A stretch of DNA of 64,000 nucleotides, from contig CP113924.1 of NCBI GenBank assembly GCA_029391995.1, forward strand, positions 177,501 through 241,500. The letters run 5' to 3'. This document shows positions 6,165-13,759 of the stretch, one piece after another. The stretch's first letter is position 1. Every line of letters begins with the position of its first letter. This DNA comes from Streptococcaceae bacterium ESL0729 (GTDB lineage: Bacteria > Bacillota > Bacilli > Lactobacillales > Streptococcaceae). Position numbers and translations under genes: made by a program. Under the pieces are notes generated by a model. That model ran no database searches, had not been told where the DNA came from, and was given only the letters and a program-made list of their open reading frames with translations.

Positions 6165-6521
6165 ATGGAAACACCTAAATGCCCATCGTGCTCTTGCGTT
6201 TATACTTATGAATTATCTGACACAACTTATGGTTGTCCTGATTGTGGACTTGAGTTTACAGCTGATGATGTAGCAGCTAATGAAACTGAAGGTAAGTTTG
6301 TTGTTTTAGATAGCGAAGGTAATGAGCTTAATACAGGGGATACTGTAGTAATCATTAAAGACCTTCCAGTCAAGGGTATGCCAAAACCAATCAAAAAAGG
6401 TACTAAGGTTAAAAACATCCGTATCAATGAGTTTGGTAAAAATGGTCATAATATTGACTCTAAGATTGATGGATTTGGATCAATTGGACTTAAGGGTTTA
6501 GTTGTAAAACTATCTAAGTAA
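6165..6521 (+). CDS. PhnA/YjdM-like zinc-ribbon protein
   Basis: 118 residues with a strong SD (AAAGGAG). N-terminal CPxC (residues 5-8) and CPDC (22-25) pairs form a zinc ribbon, followed by a small beta-barrel PhnA domain (about 45-115, NTGDTVVIIKDLPVKG). The family was named for a phosphonate operon but is not itself shown to be an enzyme of phosphonate breakdown. It lies between gapA and pgk and may be reached by read-through from gapA. Confidence 0.85.
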   Translation: METPKCPSCSCVYTYELSDTTYGCPDCGLEFTADDVAANETEGKFVVLDSEGNELNTGDTVVIIKDLPVKGMPKPIKKGTKVKNIRINEFGKNGHNIDSKIDGFGSIGLKGLVVKLSK

Positions 6522-6561
6522 AAAAAATATATTTATCCCTCAACAAAAGCTCAGTATGTGC

Positions 6562-6567
6562 TATAAT
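6562..6567 (+). promoter_or_regulatory. pgk promoter -10 (extended)
   Basis: TATAAT preceded by TGC forms an extended -10. No good -35 is visible at the usual distance, which is common for extended -10 promoters. The start is about 40 nt before the pgk ribosome site. Confidence 0.6.
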
Positions 6568-6616
6568 AATCAATGTATATAAATAGCTAAATCATTTGAT
6601 TTTAAAAGGAGAAAAA

Positions 6617-7813
6617 ATGGCTAAATTAACTGTTAAAGATGTAGATCTTAAAGGTAAGAAAGTTCTTGTCCGTGTTGACTTTAACGTTCCCCTAAAAGAC
6701 GGAGTTATCACAAATGATAACCGTATCACTGCAGCACTACCAACAATCAAATACATCGTTGATCACGGTGGACGTGCTATCCTCTTCTCTCACCTAGGAC
6801 GTGTTAAAACTGAAGAAGATAAAGCAGGAAAATCTCTTGCTCCAGTAGCAAAAGCTTTATCTGAAAAACTTGGTCAAGAAGTTGTTTTCGTTCCTGAAAC
6901 TCGTGGAGCTGAGCTTGAAAAAGCTGTTAGCGACCTTAAAGATGGACAAGTTCTTCTTGTTGAAAACACTCGTTTTGAAGATATCGACGGTAAAAAAGAA
7001 TCTGGAAACGATCCAGAACTTGCTAAATACTGGGCAGGTCTTGGAGATGGAATCTTCGTTAATGATGCCTTTGGTACAGCTCACCGTGCCCACGCTTCAA
7101 ACGTTGGTATCTCTAAGAACGTTGATAAAGCAGTAGCAGGATTCCTACTTGAAAACGAAATTGAGTACATCCAAAACGCTGTTGATGCTCCAGTTCGTCC
7201 ATTTGTTGCCATCCTTGGTGGATCAAAAGTATCTGACAAGATCGGTGTTATCGAAAACCTTCTTAAAAAAGCTGATAAAGTCCTTATCGGTGGAGGTATG
7301 ACTTACACATTCTTCAAAGCTCAAGGAATTGAAATCGGAAACTCTCTAGTTGAAGAAGACAAACTTGACCTTGCTCGCGAACTTCTTGAAAAATCTAACG
7401 GAAAACTAATCCTTCCAGACGACTCTAAAGAAGCAAACGGATTTGCTGACTACACTGAAATCAAAGATACTGAAGGTAAAGCAATCGACGCTGGCTTCAT
7501 GGGTCTTGATATTGGTCCAAAAGCAATTGCCCAATTCGGTAAAGAAATCGAAGGAGCTAAAACTGTAGTCTGGAATGGACCAATGGGTGTATTTGAAAAC
7601 CCTGACTTCCAAGCTGGTACTATCGGAGTAATGGATGCTATCGTTTCACAACCAGATTGCAAATCAATCATCGGTGGTGGAGATTCAGCAGCAGCTGCAA
7701 TCAACCTAGGATATGCTGACAGATTCTCATGGATCTCTACTGGTGGTGGAGCTTCTATGGAACTTCTTGAAGGTAAAGTTCTTCCAGGACTTGACGCTCT
7801 TACAGGTAAATAA
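6617..7813 (+). CDS. pgk: phosphoglycerate kinase
   Basis: 398 residues from ATG 6617 after AAAAGGAG. It transfers the acyl phosphate of 1,3-bisphosphoglycerate to [14 protein letters not shown] (about 18-28), the HLGR loop and the C-terminal GGGDSAAA and [13 protein letters not shown] nucleotide-site motifs are all present. Length and ends are normal. The last 16 codons and the terminator are repeated twice further downstream (9259 and 12851). Confidence 0.98.
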
Positions 7814-7849
7814 TTAAAGAAAATCCTGATAATCTATCAGGATTTTTTT
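7766..7849 (+). repeat. pgk 3'-end repeat, copy A (in pgk)
   Basis: This is the native end of pgk plus its terminator (stem AAATCCTGAT / ATCAGGATTT, 7821-7845, then a T-run). It is the reference copy for two further copies: B at 9259-9342 (about 7 differences in 83 bases) and C at 12851-12881 (a 31-base core with one difference). Confidence 0.9.
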
Positions 7850-7966
7850 GTTTTTTCTAAATTACTATTTCGTAAATCTCTGTAAAAGTGTATAATATAG
7901 TGATTATGATAACTAACACATCATGTTTAGGAAAGCAAGAAATAATATAATGTTTAGGGGATGAAA

Positions 7967-9103
7967 ATGAAAAGATACATAATAGGGCATGGACTTGATG
8001 CTTGGAGTTTCGATGAGGCTTATAAGGTAGCTCGAGATGGCGATATTATTGAGTTAGAAAAGGGTTATAATTTTACTATCCCTAAGGGAGAATCTAGACA
8101 TCTCGAGAAATGCATAACTATTGAGGGGCATCTTGAAAAAAATAATGAGGGAATCCTATATACTAATACAATTTATGGCGAGTTTATATTGAAAAGCGGT
8201 GCCCATGTTACCCTCAAAAACTTATGGATTGAGCCTGACGAAGATAAGGCAGCTTTGATGGTTGAAGAGATGTCTATACTTAATATGGAAAATGTAGTAC
8301 TGACAACAAAAGTTGAAAACTATTCTGTGTTTATTTTATACGCAGATACGGGGTCGACAGTATATGGGTGCAATTTATTAGTTACAAATCAGGGATGTTT
8401 CAATGGTTGCGAAGCTACCTTTGAAAATAGTAAGTTTCGTGATAAAGTAAAACTCCTCAACAAATCTCGCGTAACTTTTGTAAATTCCATTTTAGAGCTT
8501 CCTACCCAATCAAATAACTCAGTTCATATTGAAGATTCAAGCGCAAATTTTGTAGACTGCAATATAAGTGGTTCAACCCAAAATGATTTATTTCCTACAA
8601 TGTGGGTGATAAGAAGTGAAGTCGATTTAGTAAATACCATGGTTTCTCGCGAATCTACAGTGGGAGAATATGTTTCGGCGCTTTGGATGACAGATACTTC
8701 TCTATTGAAATCGAATGGGGGCAACTATTCAGGATTGGTTTTACAAGGTTCCACTGCGCATGTAGAAGATTTGTCTATTGAAAGTTGTGTAGATATGGAT
8801 AATGGATCCTTAATGTTATCAAAAGGAATTTTAAATTTCCGTGCTCATTACCCAGAAAGATGCAATTTATATATGGAGAAAAATTCCATCTTCCGCGGTG
8901 AAGAGATTTATTTGAATAAAGTGATAAATCCTAATATTTACGTGGGAGAAAAGTGCACCTTGTCATTAAACTCTCTTAGTTTTTGGGACAGTTCAAAAAA
9001 ACAATTGAAATCTGGAGATGAGTTATTAATAGCCCATCCCAACAGTTCTGTTAGTGTTCCAAGTGTTAAGAATATGTTTTTTAATGATATTGAATCTAAT
9101 TAA
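7967..9103 (+). CDS. right-handed beta-helix protein without an ATPase domain
   Basis: 378 residues from ATG 7967, chosen because AGGGG ends 6 nt before it; an ATG two codons upstream is too close. The chain is a run of short strands with stacked Val/Ile/Leu and Asn and no signal peptide, which fits a cytoplasmic parallel beta-helix. It aligns along its length with residues 1-350 of the fusion protein at 9474: YIIGHG...FDEAY...DGDIIELE against YLVGSG...FGDAY...DGDVIELE, then LKNLWIEPDEDK against LKNICIQADEDK and ENVVLTT in both. It then stops instead of continuing into AAA domains. No active-site residues are recognisable. Confidence 0.75.
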   Translation: MKRYIIGHGLDAWSFDEAYKVARDGDIIELEKGYNFTIPKGESRHLEKCITIEGHLEKNNEGILYTNTIYGEFILKSGAHVTLKNLWIEPDEDKAALMVEEMSILNMENVVLTTKVENYSVFILYADTGSTVYGCNLLVTNQGCFNGCEATFENSKFRDKVKLLNKSRVTFVNSILELPTQSNNSVHIEDSSANFVDCNISGSTQNDLFPTMWVIRSEVDLVNTMVSRESTVGEYVSALWMTDTSLLKSNGGNYSGLVLQGSTAHVEDLSIESCVDMDNGSLMLSKGILNFRAHYPERCNLYMEKNSIFRGEEIYLNKVINPNIYVGEKCTLSLNSLSFWDSSKKQLKSGDELLIAHPNSSVSVPSVKNMFFNDIESN

Positions 9104-9179: not shown

Positions 9180-9258
9180 AGATGAATGATGGAAGTGATG
9201 GGGATAATCTCCATAATGCCAAAGCAATAAGTAAGGAAGATATAATAAAGGTGCTAGT
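9180..9258 (+). pseudogene. possible leftover C-terminal tail of a lost AAA domain
   Basis: One frame reads DNLHNAKAISKEDIIKVL directly before repeat copy B. It resembles the last residues of the AAA fusion (SYDLNTITVEDINEVLT), which end just before the decayed gene of the next cassette. There is no start codon and the upstream frame is closed. The rest of 9104-9258 holds no gene that I can see. The similarity is short, so this is suggestive only. Confidence 0.4.
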
Positions 9259-9342
9259 CTTGAAAGTAAAGTTCTTCCAGGACTTGATGCCCTTACAGAC
9301 AAATAATCGAAGAAAATCCTGATAATCTATCAGGATTTTTTT
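9259..9342 (+). repeat. pgk 3'-end repeat, copy B, with terminator
   Basis: Matches 7766-7849 (the last 48 bases of pgk and its terminator) with about 7 substitutions in 83 bases. The hairpin (9314-9338) and T-run are intact, so it still ends transcription from the beta-helix gene. The pgk codons here have no coding use. Confidence 0.9.
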
Positions 9343-9473: not shown

Positions 9474-12230
9474 TTGGCAAAATATTTAGTGGGTTCCGGA
9501 GGAAATACGTGGGACTTTGGTGATGCATATGCAGCAGCAAGCGATGGGGATGTCATTGAACTAGAGAGTGGTTTTAATTACAGGATACCTCAAGGATATC
9601 AACATAATCTTGAAAAAAATATAACTATTATTGGCTGTTTGAGAAAAGAAGGAAATACTGATATTTATGAAAATGCTATATATGGAAAATTAGTTATCAA
9701 AGGGGGAACCCAGGTCACTCTTAAAAATATCTGTATTCAGGCAGATGAGGATAAGAATTCTCTGGTGATTACAGAAAAATCAACTGTCTCCATTGAAAAT
9801 GTGGTGCTTACAACAGAAGTTGAAAATCCTAGTGCTCCTACCCTCTATGCAGAGGACGGTGCAACCATAAAAGGGACTAGTTTGGAAGTAAAAAAAGGAG
9901 TAGCTAAATTTTATAATGCAACCGCTGATCTTATAAAGAGCAAGTTTTTGGATAGTGTAATTGTCAAGAATAGATCTAGGGTAACCATGCGAGATACGGT
10001 TATCGAACTTCCAAACCGCTCTGGTAATGCAGTGAGTATTTTGTATTCAGAGGCCATTTTTACAAACTGTAAAATAAGCGGTTCCCTCCAGAATGACGAC
10101 AATTCAACCTTATGGGCCCAAGGGAGTAGGGTAACCCTCACCAATACTACAGTTTTCCGAAAAACTGAGAAGACGTTTGAGCATGGAATATGTGTAATAA
10201 ATGGTTCATCGCTAAAGGCAGCTAAAAGCACTTGCTCTTCGATTTATTTAGATGGCTCGATGGCACAAGTGGAGGGCCTGACTGTCAACAATGTAGTCAG
10301 TTTAAGAGAAGGCTCGCTTATGTCTTCCAAGGGAGTCTTGAATCTTCTCGGTCAATATTCTAAAAAGATAGATTTATTTATGGATGACAATTCTGTTTTA
10401 ATGGGAGAAGGACTCCGTCTAAACAGAAAATGCGGTCCTAATATTCGTTTAAGGGGAGGTTCTAAGCTCTGCACCGACTATATCAGCTTTGTTGGTGGTC
10501 AAAAGAGCGATCTAGTATTTCAGGTTTCTGAAGACAGTCACATGATGAGTTCAGGATCTGGAAAGGCTACGGCGACCTCGCCCAATACTCTTTCAAGTTC
10601 CCCGAAAAATATTCCCTCACAAAGTGCTCGGGAGAAATTAAATGACCTAGTTGGCCTTGATCTGGTCAAGGGGGAAATTAATAAGATTATCCAGATGGTT
10701 GAGTACAATAAAATACGTGAAAGTAAAGGTCTTTCACCTGAAAAACAGTCCCTTCACTCGGTCTTTCTGGGAAATCCGGGAACCGGTAAGACGACAGTTG
10801 CAAGGCTTCTTGGGGAAGTGCTCTTTGAAAATGGAGCGTTTTCAGGTGACGAATATAAATTCATTGAAGTATCAGAATCAGATCTGATTTCAGAAAATGT
10901 AGGAGGAACTGCCCTACAAACTCAGTCATTTTTGGAGAAGGCACGAGGAGGGGTTCTCTTCATTGATGAAGCCTATACCTTAAATAAGGGAGAGTCTAGG
11001 GTAAATTTTGGTCAGGAAGCCATCAACACCATCCTGAAATATATGGAAGACTACCGAGATGAAATCATGGTCATTTTTGCCGGTTATACGAAAGAGATGG
11101 AACAATTCCTGCAAACCAACCCTGGTCTCAAGTCGCGAGTTCCTAATACTTTCGTCTTCGAGGATTACTCTCCTCAAGAAATAACCAAGATGGGACAATT
11201 CCTTTTGAGGAAAAAACAATATGTTTTGGAAGATGAAGAGTGGTATGCAAAAAGAGTTGAAGGTGCTTATAGGAACTCTCTTGATAAGAGTAATGGACGC
11301 TGGATTCGTAACTTCAATGAAAAACTCTTGAATGCTCTTGCTAGTCGTGTTATTGAAGATGATTGTGATGATGTTGCAACAATAATCAAAGCAGACATTG
11401 AAGAAGTTGCTAATGCCGGGCGCTACCAAAATGACGAAACTTCTATTAGTGCTACAGATCGGCTGAACCAGATGATAGGTATTACCCAGGTCAAAAAACA
11501 GATGGAACAATTTATTGCTGTTGCAGAAGTTAATAAGCGTCGGGAAGAATTGGGACAAAACATTTCCGATTTCACTCTCCATTCTCTCTTCTTAGGAAAC
11601 CCGGGAACTGGCAAGACGACTGTCGCCCGTATTATGGGTGATATCCTTTATCAAAAGGATGTTATCAGTCAAAATAAATTTATTGAGGTTTCACGAAGTG
11701 ACTTAGTCGCGGGTTATGTTGGACAGACTGCTATTAAAACCCGTAGGGTTCTCGAATCTGCCCTAGGAGGGGTCCTCTTTATCGATGAGGCTTATACCTT
11801 AAGTGGAAATGGGGATAATGATTTTGGTAGAGAGGCCATTGGCGAAATTTTGAAATTTATGGAAGATCACAGAAGAGATATTGTAATTATCTTTGCCGGT
11901 TATACAAAAGAGATGGGAGAGTTCCTACAAATGAACTCAGGCCTTAGAAGTCGTATTCCAACGACTATGAACTTTGAAGATTATAGCCTTAAAGATCTTG
12001 TGGAAATTGGTCTTCTGGATCTTCATAGGTCTGGCTATAAAATTGATGAAAAATCTTACGGTCTACTAGTTGAAAACAAGTACAATATTTCAAATGACTC
12101 CAGTAATGGTCGTTGGATTAGAAATCTTAATGAGAAACTCATCATGGCTATGTCTATTCGCATTAGCAGAACGAGCTCTTACGACTTAAATACCATAACT
12201 GTTGAAGACATAAATGAAGTATTAACATAG
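9474..12230 (+). CDS. beta-helix / AAA+ / AAA+ fusion ATPase (CbxX/CfqX type)
   Basis: 918 residues. The start is TTG 9474, placed by AGGAGG 5 nt upstream. Residues 1-345 are a parallel beta-helix paralogous to the preceding protein, 346-385 a Ser/Pro-rich linker, and about 386-640 and 650-918 two AAA+ domains of the CbxX/CfqX (SpoVK, EccA) class. Each has Walker A GNPGTGKTT (near 432 and 708), Walker B GGVLFIDEAYTL (near 491 and 764), a sensor-1 region IIFAGYTKEM, an arginine-finger region (KSRVP, RSRIP) and a sensor-2 NGRWIRN. Both ATP sites look intact. There is no signal peptide or membrane segment. The helix probably selects a substrate that the AAA ring remodels. EccA itself has TPRs instead, and no type VII secretion gene lies nearby. 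Biological role unknown. Confidence 0.85.
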   Translation: MAKYLVGSGGNTWDFGDAYAAASDGDVIELESGFNYRIPQGYQHNLEKNITIIGCLRKEGNTDIYENAIYGKLVIKGGTQVTLKNICIQADEDKNSLVITEKSTVSIENVVLTTEVENPSAPTLYAEDGATIKGTSLEVKKGVAKFYNATADLIKSKFLDSVIVKNRSRVTMRDTVIELPNRSGNAVSILYSEAIFTNCKISGSLQNDDNSTLWAQGSRVTLTNTTVFRKTEKTFEHGICVINGSSLKAAKSTCSSIYLDGSMAQVEGLTVNNVVSLREGSLMSSKGVLNLLGQYSKKIDLFMDDNSVLMGEGLRLNRKCGPNIRLRGGSKLCTDYISFVGGQKSDLVFQVSEDSHMMSSGSGKATATSPNTLSSSPKNIPSQSAREKLNDLVGLDLVKGEINKIIQMVEYNKIRESKGLSPEKQSLHSVFLGNPGTGKTTVARLLGEVLFENGAFSGDEYKFIEVSESDLISENVGGTALQTQSFLEKARGGVLFIDEAYTLNKGESRVNFGQEAINTILKYMEDYRDEIMVIFAGYTKEMEQFLQTNPGLKSRVPNTFVFEDYSPQEITKMGQFLLRKKQYVLEDEEWYAKRVEGAYRNSLDKSNGRWIRNFNEKLLNALASRVIEDDCDDVATIIKADIEEVANAGRYQNDETSISATDRLNQMIGITQVKKQMEQFIAVAEVNKRREELGQNISDFTLHSLFLGNPGTGKTTVARIMGDILYQKDVISQNKFIEVSRSDLVAGYVGQTAIKTRRVLESALGGVLFIDEAYTLSGNGDNDFGREAIGEILKFMEDHRRDIVIIFAGYTKEMGEFLQMNSGLRSRIPTTMNFEDYSLKDLVEIGLLDLHRSGYKIDEKSYGLLVENKYNISNDSSNGRWIRNLNEKLIMAMSIRISRTSSYDLNTITVEDINEVLT

Positions 12231-12835: not shown

Positions 12836-12850
12836 ATTAATTTTTGCAAA

Positions 12851-12881
12851 GGACTTGACGCTCTTACAGATAAATAATTAA
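12851..12881 (+). repeat. pgk 3'-end repeat, copy C (core only)
   Basis: 31 bases identical to 7789-7819 of pgk except one base in the penultimate codon. The terminator after it (12884-12917) differs in sequence from those of copies A and B. Confidence 0.85.
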
Positions 12882-12883
12882 TA

Positions 12884-12917
12884 AAAAGAATCTTGATGAA
12901 ATCAAGATTCTTTTTTA
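12884..12917 (+). terminator. terminator after repeat copy C
   Basis: A perfect 12-bp stem (AAGAATCTTGAT / ATCAAGATTCTT) with a GAA loop and T-run. The T-run abuts the first CiaR-like hexamer of the small RNA promoter. Confidence 0.85.
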
Positions 12918-12968
12918 AGTTTAACCTAAGTTTCCCTTTAGCTTTTCTTAAGCTTTCAGGCCTATACT
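12914..12968 (+). promoter_or_regulatory. CiaR-like hexamer array and -10 of small RNA gene 1
   Basis: Four hexamers with 5-bp gaps: TTTAAG 12914-12919, CCTAAG 12925-12930, CTTTAG 12936-12941, CTTAAG 12947-12952. A 10-bp gap then leads to TATACT (12963-12968). The published streptococcal CiaR site is two TTTAAG-type repeats with a 5-bp gap, about 10 bp before the -10. There is no normal -35, as expected for an activator-dependent promoter. Confidence 0.75.
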
Positions 12969-12974
12969 AAGGTC

Positions 12975-13063
12975 ACTCCTAAAAGACAGCTTAAAAACTG
13001 TATAAACTTTTTTCATAAATAAACTCCTAAAAACCGCTAGACATCATGCTAGCGGTTTTTTTT
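12975..13063 (+). ncRNA. putative Cia-dependent small RNA, copy 1
   Basis: The predicted transcript is 89 nt, starting about 7 nt after TATACT and ending in a strong terminator (stem AAAACCGCTAG / CTAGCGGTTTT, 13030-13059). It has a small 5' hairpin (ACAG...CTGT), a single-stranded A/U stretch and two ACTCCT motifs, one at the 5' end and one just before the terminator. These are complementary to Shine-Dalgarno sequences. Length, promoter type, two-hairpin layout and anti-SD motif match streptococcal csRNAs, which repress translation by pairing over ribosome sites. There is no open frame of note. Confidence 0.75.
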
Positions 13064-13129
13064 GTTTTCATTTATTTTTTATTAGAAGCTTCTTACTTAA
13101 TTTTTTGGAAGGATTTAAAGGTATATTTT

Positions 13130-13184
13130 TTTAAGTTTAATCTAAGTTTATCTTTAGCTTCCATTAAGCTTTCAGGCTTATACT
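13130..13184 (+). promoter_or_regulatory. CiaR-like hexamer array and -10 of small RNA gene 2
   Basis: TTTAAG 13130-13135, TCTAAG 13141-13146, CTTTAG 13152-13157, ATTAAG 13163-13168, all with 5-bp gaps, then 10 bp and TATACT (13179-13184). The spacing is identical to that of the first copy although several bases between the hexamers have changed, which suggests selection on the hexamer phase. Confidence 0.75.
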
Positions 13185-13190
13185 GAGGTC

Positions 13191-13279
13191 ACTCCTAAAA
13201 GACAGCTTAAAAACTGTATAAAAACTTTTTTCATAAATAAACTCCTAAAAACCGCTAGACATCATGCTAGCGGTTTTTT
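13191..13279 (+). ncRNA. putative Cia-dependent small RNA, copy 2
   Basis: 89 nt, the same as copy 1 apart from a two-A insertion in the single-stranded region and a base change in the terminator tail. Both ACTCCT motifs and the GCTAG terminator stem are conserved. Its terminator (13249-13278) lies 7 bp from the stop of the convergent luxS gene and has an A-run on the other side, so it probably also ends luxS. Confidence 0.75.
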
Positions 13280-13285
13280 CTGCTT

Positions 13286-13759
13286 TTAAATTACTTTTCT
13301 TTCAAAGGCATCTGTTGAAATACCTTTTGAAAGAATTTCACGGGCCCACTCTTTAGCTGACCAGAGTGAATGATCGCGGTAGTTACCACAAGATTCAATC
13401 GTAGTTCCAGGGACATCCTCCCAAGTAATACCATCAGCAATTTCTTCAAGAGATGACTTGATAACTCGAGCAATGTCCTCACTGGTTGGCTCACCCCACA
13501 TAATCATGTGAAAACCAGTCCGACAGCCAAAGGGACTGCAGTCAATCATCCCGTCAATGCGGTCACGAATAAGACTTGCCAGCAGGTGCTCAATTGTGTG
13601 TAGGCCCCCTGTTGGAATCTCTTGAACATTTGGTTGAACCAAGCGGACATCAAAATTTGTTATAACATCACCATGAGGTCCCTCTTCGCTTGCAATAAGC
13701 CTGACGTAAGGTGCTAGTACTTTAGTGTGGTCAAGTTGGAAGCTTTCTACTTCTGCCAT
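13286..13759 (-). CDS. luxS: S-ribosylhomocysteine lyase
   Basis: 157 residues, with start ATG after AAAGGAG. It cleaves S-ribosylhomocysteine to homocysteine and the AI-2 precursor in the activated methyl cycle. The metal ligands His54 and His58 lie in HTIEH, Cys124 in ESCGNYRDH is the third ligand, and catalytic Cys79 is in [10 protein letters not shown]. Length is normal. It is monocistronic, transcribed towards the tandem small RNA genes. Confidence 0.97.

Follow-up and report, generated by a model that had tools for sequence, protein, structure and literature searches.

What are the two near-identical units that stand in tandem in the gap between pgk and luxS of Streptococcaceae bacterium ESL0729, a genome that does not belong to Streptococcus? 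The window analysed here, a stretch of 64 kb (64,000 nucleotides), comes from a Floricoccus-group member of the Streptococcaceae whose genome of 1,448,317 bases forms one contig; the isolates ESL0687 and ESL0729, obtained from stingless bees and with genomes of 1.4 Mb, form a sister clade of Floricoccus (PMC10128065), and the host species shares its genus group with F. penangensis and F. tropicus. The reading preferred here, to which we assign a probability of roughly 0.88 from the sequence evidence, is that both units are Cia-dependent small RNAs (csRNAs), predicted to be activated by CiaR, to pair with translation start regions, and to be tandem duplicates of each other.

The two RNA units occupy positions 12975-13063 (89 nt) and 13191-13281 (91 nt) of the plus strand; an earlier note on this DNA had placed the first of them correctly, and its figures for the second (89 nt, ending at 13279) are replaced by those given here. 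The near-identity with a two-base indel that it described is borne out by the RNA bodies, which align with 88 matches, 1 mismatch and one 2-nt gap; the promoters are identical at 53 of 61 positions, and the flanks downstream of the two terminators are unrelated sequence. A -10 element TATACT precedes each unit (12963-12968 and 13179-13184, plus strand), and the transcription start of unit 1 was placed 7 nt past it, following a published rule (PMC3091779). The predicted fold of both RNAs begins with a 5' hairpin of 4 bp, continues with an open centre and closes with a terminator of 12 bp, which is the architecture that had been claimed, with folding-energy z-scores of -4.2 (unit 1) and -4.8 (unit 2), and none of 200 shuffled sequences was equally stable. 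In unit 1 the 5' hairpin (12986-13001, plus strand), which is invariant across the copies of this genome and of its sister species, is followed by the single-stranded centre AAACUUUUUUCAUAAAUAAACUCCU (25 nt, 13004-13028), identified by folding and copy comparison and predicted to be the target-pairing region, and by the intrinsic terminator with its T-run (13029-13063). Unit 2 has the same single-stranded centre at 13222-13246 and a terminator at 13247-13281 that is flanked by an A-run and a T-run, all on the plus strand. Among the reading frames of at least 50 codons in the window, none overlaps either unit.

The units run towards luxS, as had been stated, since this gene (13286-13759, minus strand) converges on unit 2; its assignment as a 157-aa S-ribosylhomocysteine lyase is correct, at 294 bits against a cut-off of 290. 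With an A-run on one side and a T-run on the other, the predicted terminator hairpin of unit 2 could also end the convergent luxS mRNA. On the upstream side, a terminator-like hairpin of the upstream transcript (12884-12918, plus strand), recognised by sequence reading and by blastn against the sister locus, is part of a pgk 3' end that is present in duplicate, and the T-run of this hairpin runs into the first CiaR half-site of unit 1. By the blastn comparison, the pgk 3' end lies both within 6349-7849 and at 12850-12914. This pgk 3' end occurs three times in the window (~7785-7849, 9258-9342 and 12850-12914), as copies of 65-88 bp that are 81-95% identical to that of the sister species; between the copies lie two genes related to each other, one at 7961-9103 and one at 9474-12230, and the latter encodes AAA+-like ATPase motifs. 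Since the csRNA array of the sister species lies directly 3' of pgk, this locus probably gained about 5 kb by two successive insertions at the pgk end, as if that end served as an integration site.

The promoters suggest a link of the units to CiaR. Each carries four half-sites at 11-bp spacing rather than the usual two: TTTAAG-N5-CCTAAG-N5-CTTTAG-N5-CTTAAG ahead of unit 1 (12914-12952, plus strand; half-sites starting at 12914, 12925, 12936 and 12947) and TTTAAG-N5-TCTAAG-N5-CTTTAG-N5-ATTAAG ahead of unit 2 (13130-13168, plus strand). When both strands of the window were scanned for four TTTAAG half-sites at this spacing, the two arrays were the best found, with summed mismatches of 4 and 5 of 24 against 6 for the next best, and the CiaR-like promoter that the earlier note had proposed is present. 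The published CiaR site consists of TTTAAG-N5-TTTAAG ending 10 bp before the -10 element, with the G residues being essential (PMC3091779). The promoter-proximal sequences CTTTAG-N5-CTTAAG-N10-TATACT (unit 1) and CTTTAG-N5-ATTAAG-N10-TATACT (unit 2) retain both G residues and the spacing, so that the direct repeat, the 5-bp spacer and the distance of 10 bp from the last half-site to the -10 element, as in streptococcal CiaR promoters (PMC3091779), are found in both units. The cut-off used in the search of Marx 2010, at most one mismatch per half-site and at most two in the -10 element, is failed by both because the half-site CTTTAG has two mismatches; this cut-off is a search setting and not a definition. 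Four-half-site promoters recur in a Lactovum-genus locus (TTTAAG-N5-TTTAAG-N5-GTTTAG-N5-ATTAAG before TATAAT) and, as four near-matching half-sites, in F. penangensis and F. tropicus, in each case ahead of the second csRNA; nearly all promoters checked in Lactococcus, Pseudolactococcus and Streptococcus have two. The extra pair of half-sites may strengthen the binding of CiaR.

Binding to repeats with an 11-bp period is common among OmpR-type regulators, of which the host genome encodes four; the RNAs could accordingly be real and yet be activated by a regulator other than CiaR, of the WalR, PhoP-like or BceR-like kind. Some csRNA-like candidates (L228 and L229) do occur in genomes whose best CiaR match reaches only 37-41% identity, which favours this alternative. 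A search of the host genome for ciaR and ciaH orthologues, as the earlier note had proposed, found a CiaR orthologue of 228 aa (~901931-902617, minus strand) with a sensor kinase, CiaH, directly downstream. The regulator is 89-90% identical to its Floricoccus counterparts and 73-80% identical to those of Streptococcus, Lactococcus and Lactovum, whereas the next-best regulators reach ~35-42% identity; in a maximum-likelihood tree it falls inside the streptococcal CiaR clade (S. suis and three other streptococci) with support of 99/96. The streptococcal recognition helix reads VVEVY(V/I)SK(V/I)RKKL (PMC3091779); the only departures of the helix found here, VVEVYISKLRKKL, from the pneumococcal sequence fall at the two positions where streptococci also differ among themselves, and the second of these holds L instead of V/I. 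Recognition helix and grouping with streptococcal CiaR thus agree, and the sensor half of CiaH is homologous to sensors of S. suis (E 3e-19) and Lactococcus. A search of NCBIfam found no CiaR model and a search for a solved CiaR structure brought up none, so that the identity of CiaR rests on the homologues, the published helix and the tree.

In streptococci, htrA is a target of CiaR. Just upstream of htrA in the host genome, TTTAAG-N5-ATTAAG-N10-TAGAAT stands in the correct register and is the same, base for base, in the sister species. A third csRNA of ~113 nt lies elsewhere in the genome (~1231303-1231191, minus strand); its promoter, TTTAAG-N5-TTTAAG-N10-TATACT, lies within the Marx 2010 cut-off, and the RNA is kept in all four Floricoccus-group genomes. 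By these sequence features a single regulator is predicted to control no fewer than three csRNA genes in the host genome. A genome-wide search for the CiaR pattern with at most 3 mismatches gave 18 matches against 12 for a reversed-pattern control, and since this is little above the control, genome-wide box counts are not used as evidence. Activation by another regulator is improbable, given that the half-site published for CiaR reads TTTAAG (PMC3091779), that the recognition helix is conserved, and that before htrA and the third csRNA this box is equally far from the -10 element. We return to CiaR as the probable activator of the two units.

Relatives of the host speak to whether the units are maintained. 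At the corresponding site the sister species carries the unit four times in tandem, together with a collapsed remnant between copies 3 and 4 (~2110-2200 of locus L128) in which the start of a promoter is fused to the end of a terminator. Because of these four copies, we infer that the copies in the pgk-luxS gap are products of tandem duplication and would provide dosage. The centre is identical, except for its last base, in all six copies of the host and its sister species. Between the two species the terminator stem differs by one compensatory pair (C-G/U-A) and three one-sided changes; covariation of the named structure over these copies is weak, with 43 of 500 shuffles reaching its score, and RNAalifold returned almost no consensus structure from a nine-copy alignment, which is due to misalignment of the hairpins by MAFFT. 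F. penangensis and F. tropicus have two such RNAs each, at other loci. Four loci of these two species also contain a further multicopy RNA-like element, which shares the stretch AAACTTTTTTCATAAAT...CTCC with the csRNAs and has a terminator, with no obvious TTTAAG promoter.

The difference in copy number (2 against 4) and the collapsed promoter-terminator remnant in the sister species are what one might also expect of a non-functional tandem repeat that has a promoter and a terminator, with its copies being decaying relics. This explanation is slightly less probable still than that of another regulator: the centre and the 5' end are constant although flank and terminator differ between the species, the promoter half-sites are kept, and RNAs of the same type stand at independent positions in F. 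penangensis and F. tropicus. Least credible, and rejected, is a small peptide gene in place of an RNA, since the minus-strand start AGGAG-N7-AUGAAAAAA, with its perfect ribosome site, is indeed present in both copies, but the frame behind it is broken between them by the 2-nt indel (MKKVYTVFKLSFRSDLSIGLKA in copy 1, MKKVFIQFLSCLLGVTSV in copy 2) and codes for 8-13 aa in the sister's four copies, while it is the DNA of the centre that is conserved, which fits an antisense to start sites.

The csRNA reading can be compared with what is known of the class. Like streptococcal csRNAs of the csRNA1 to csRNA40 types, the units have a length of ~90 nt, two hairpins, an own terminator, a CiaR box that ends 10 bp before the -10 element, and a centre complementary to start sites, with the shared stretch AAACUUUUUUCAU and CUCCUAA. 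The tandem arrangement is already known from S. sanguinis (PMC8186281), where csRNA1-1 and csRNA1-2 are likewise near-identical copies. Differences are seen in the four half-sites, where streptococcal csRNAs have two; in the position of the units in the pgk-luxS gap of a genus other than Streptococcus; and in the motif ACUCCU, which is unpaired ahead of the small 5' hairpin, whereas the CUCCUAA of csRNA1 lies in the loop of an 11-bp hairpin. Multicopy RNAs activated by a two-component system also occur in Listeria monocytogenes: LhrC1-5, controlled by LisRK and active on envelope stress, pair through C-rich sites with Shine-Dalgarno regions (PMC4132741), in likeness to what is predicted for the units described here. 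They differ in regulator and sequence, having UCCC motifs instead of ACUCCU and a start-codon complement, and were compared by literature only.

A covariance search against the Rfam csRNA families, also proposed earlier, gave a divided answer: csRNA RF02379 was the best family and both units align with it over their full length and on the correct strand, and the scores of 33.3 bits (unit 1) and 28.2 bits (unit 2) lie below the gathering threshold of 57. The model represents the csRNA1 type of Streptococcus; it scores over its cut-off in only 127 of the 247 Streptococcaceae genomes searched, and therefore does not cover the whole csRNA class, missing many Streptococcus genomes and csRNA members. 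AbsR25, BSnc120 and other Rfam names that came up on the units are chance matches, far below cut-off or on the wrong strand or in the wrong lineage. The size of the units agrees with the published range (intergenic, 51-202 nt, intrinsic terminator within 250 nt), CiaRH is encoded in the same genome, and the centre, being the complement of AGGAGUUUAUUUAUGAAAAAAGUUU, is complementary to translation initiation regions. Each csRNA property that was checked is found, apart from the one-mismatch setting of Marx 2010, and the units are classed as new putative csRNAs and not as members of RF02379. The match to streptococcal csRNAs that the earlier note had suggested is supported by the full-length Rfam alignment, CiaRH, the htrA box, the third csRNA and the relatives.

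As a working model, cell-envelope-type signals would cause CiaH to phosphorylate CiaR, which would bind the half-site arrays and switch on the TATACT promoter of each unit; two near-identical RNAs of 89-91 nt, ended by their own terminators, would result, and their centre, together with the 5' end ACUCCU, may pair with the Shine-Dalgarno/AUG region of several mRNAs. Typical target mRNAs would start AUGAAAAAA, and their translation would be blocked. Known csRNAs repress translation by pairing at the start region, as with comC in S. pneumoniae (PMC8186281). The centre is the exact complement of AGGAG-N7-AUG-AAAAAAGUUU, and ACUCCU occurs twice in each RNA. When one mismatch was allowed, the motif AGGAG-N7-AUGAAAAAA had 15 sites in the host genome outside the csRNAs, against 2 for a reversed control; several are ahead of lipoprotein genes, but such a pattern is expected of start sites anyway. 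The energies of the target duplexes (-10 to -19 kcal/mol) were not clear of those of ordinary genes in the window (best -19.2). Pairing with start sites is likely to be the general mechanism of the units.

The range of such RNAs beyond the genus was examined with two models. The first, built from nine Floricoccus-group RNAs with the promoters left out, gave weak matches in other genera; of the best eight distinct loci examined, seven have a CiaR box exactly 10 bp from the -10 element, share the centre and have a terminator, and these belong to the Lactovum-genus genome, a Streptococcaceae MAG, L. cremoris, L. taiwanensis and three Pseudolactococcus genomes. The second, combining promoter and RNA, reached 34-37 bits in genomes outside its training (L. 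petauri, L. termiticola, L. reticulitermitis, L. insecticola, L. piscium and L. cremoris), compared with a best score of 29.4 in ~129 genomes of other Lactobacillales families; some matches outside the Streptococcaceae look csRNA-like, and the border is not clean. Three outside genera have regulators that are 54-59% identical to CiaR. In another Lactobacillales family, locus L225 (G390:C2:374300-375700) holds four tandem units ~155 bp apart, with a start-site-complementary stretch and a terminator. The csRNA-like genes L228 (G339:C193; TTTAAG-N5-TTTAAG-N10-TATACT) and L229 (G393:C1) have TTTAAG-type boxes, and given the low identity of the best CiaR match in their genomes, another regulator may read the same box there. 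We propose tentatively, at somewhat less than even odds, that the common ancestor of all Streptococcaceae already had the CiaR-csRNA circuit and that the Floricoccus group and the Lactovum-genus genome evolved doubled CiaR sites; the CiaR-like regulators and the csRNA-like tandem RNAs with TTTAAG-type boxes elsewhere in the Lactobacillales are the reason why the circuit might be older still.

Papers of 2010 and 2021 place CiaRH and csRNAs in Streptococcus only, with CiaRH stated to be absent from Lactococcus (PMC3091779) and from any genus other than Streptococcus (PMC8186281). Our literature searches found nothing on CiaR in Floricoccus, and neither CiaR nor csRNAs reported in Lactococcus. 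The evidence for CiaR orthologues does not support these statements of absence: CiaRH orthologues and predicted csRNA genes are now found in the Floricoccus group, Lactococcus, Pseudolactococcus and the Lactovum-genus genome. The finding matters mainly for its range, with a CiaR-csRNA circuit that appears to be older and wider than published; the circuit becomes testable in Lactococcus cremoris, an organism that is safe to handle in the laboratory and in which the RNAs are candidate envelope-stress sRNAs, and comparison across genera could now reveal the targets of csRNAs.
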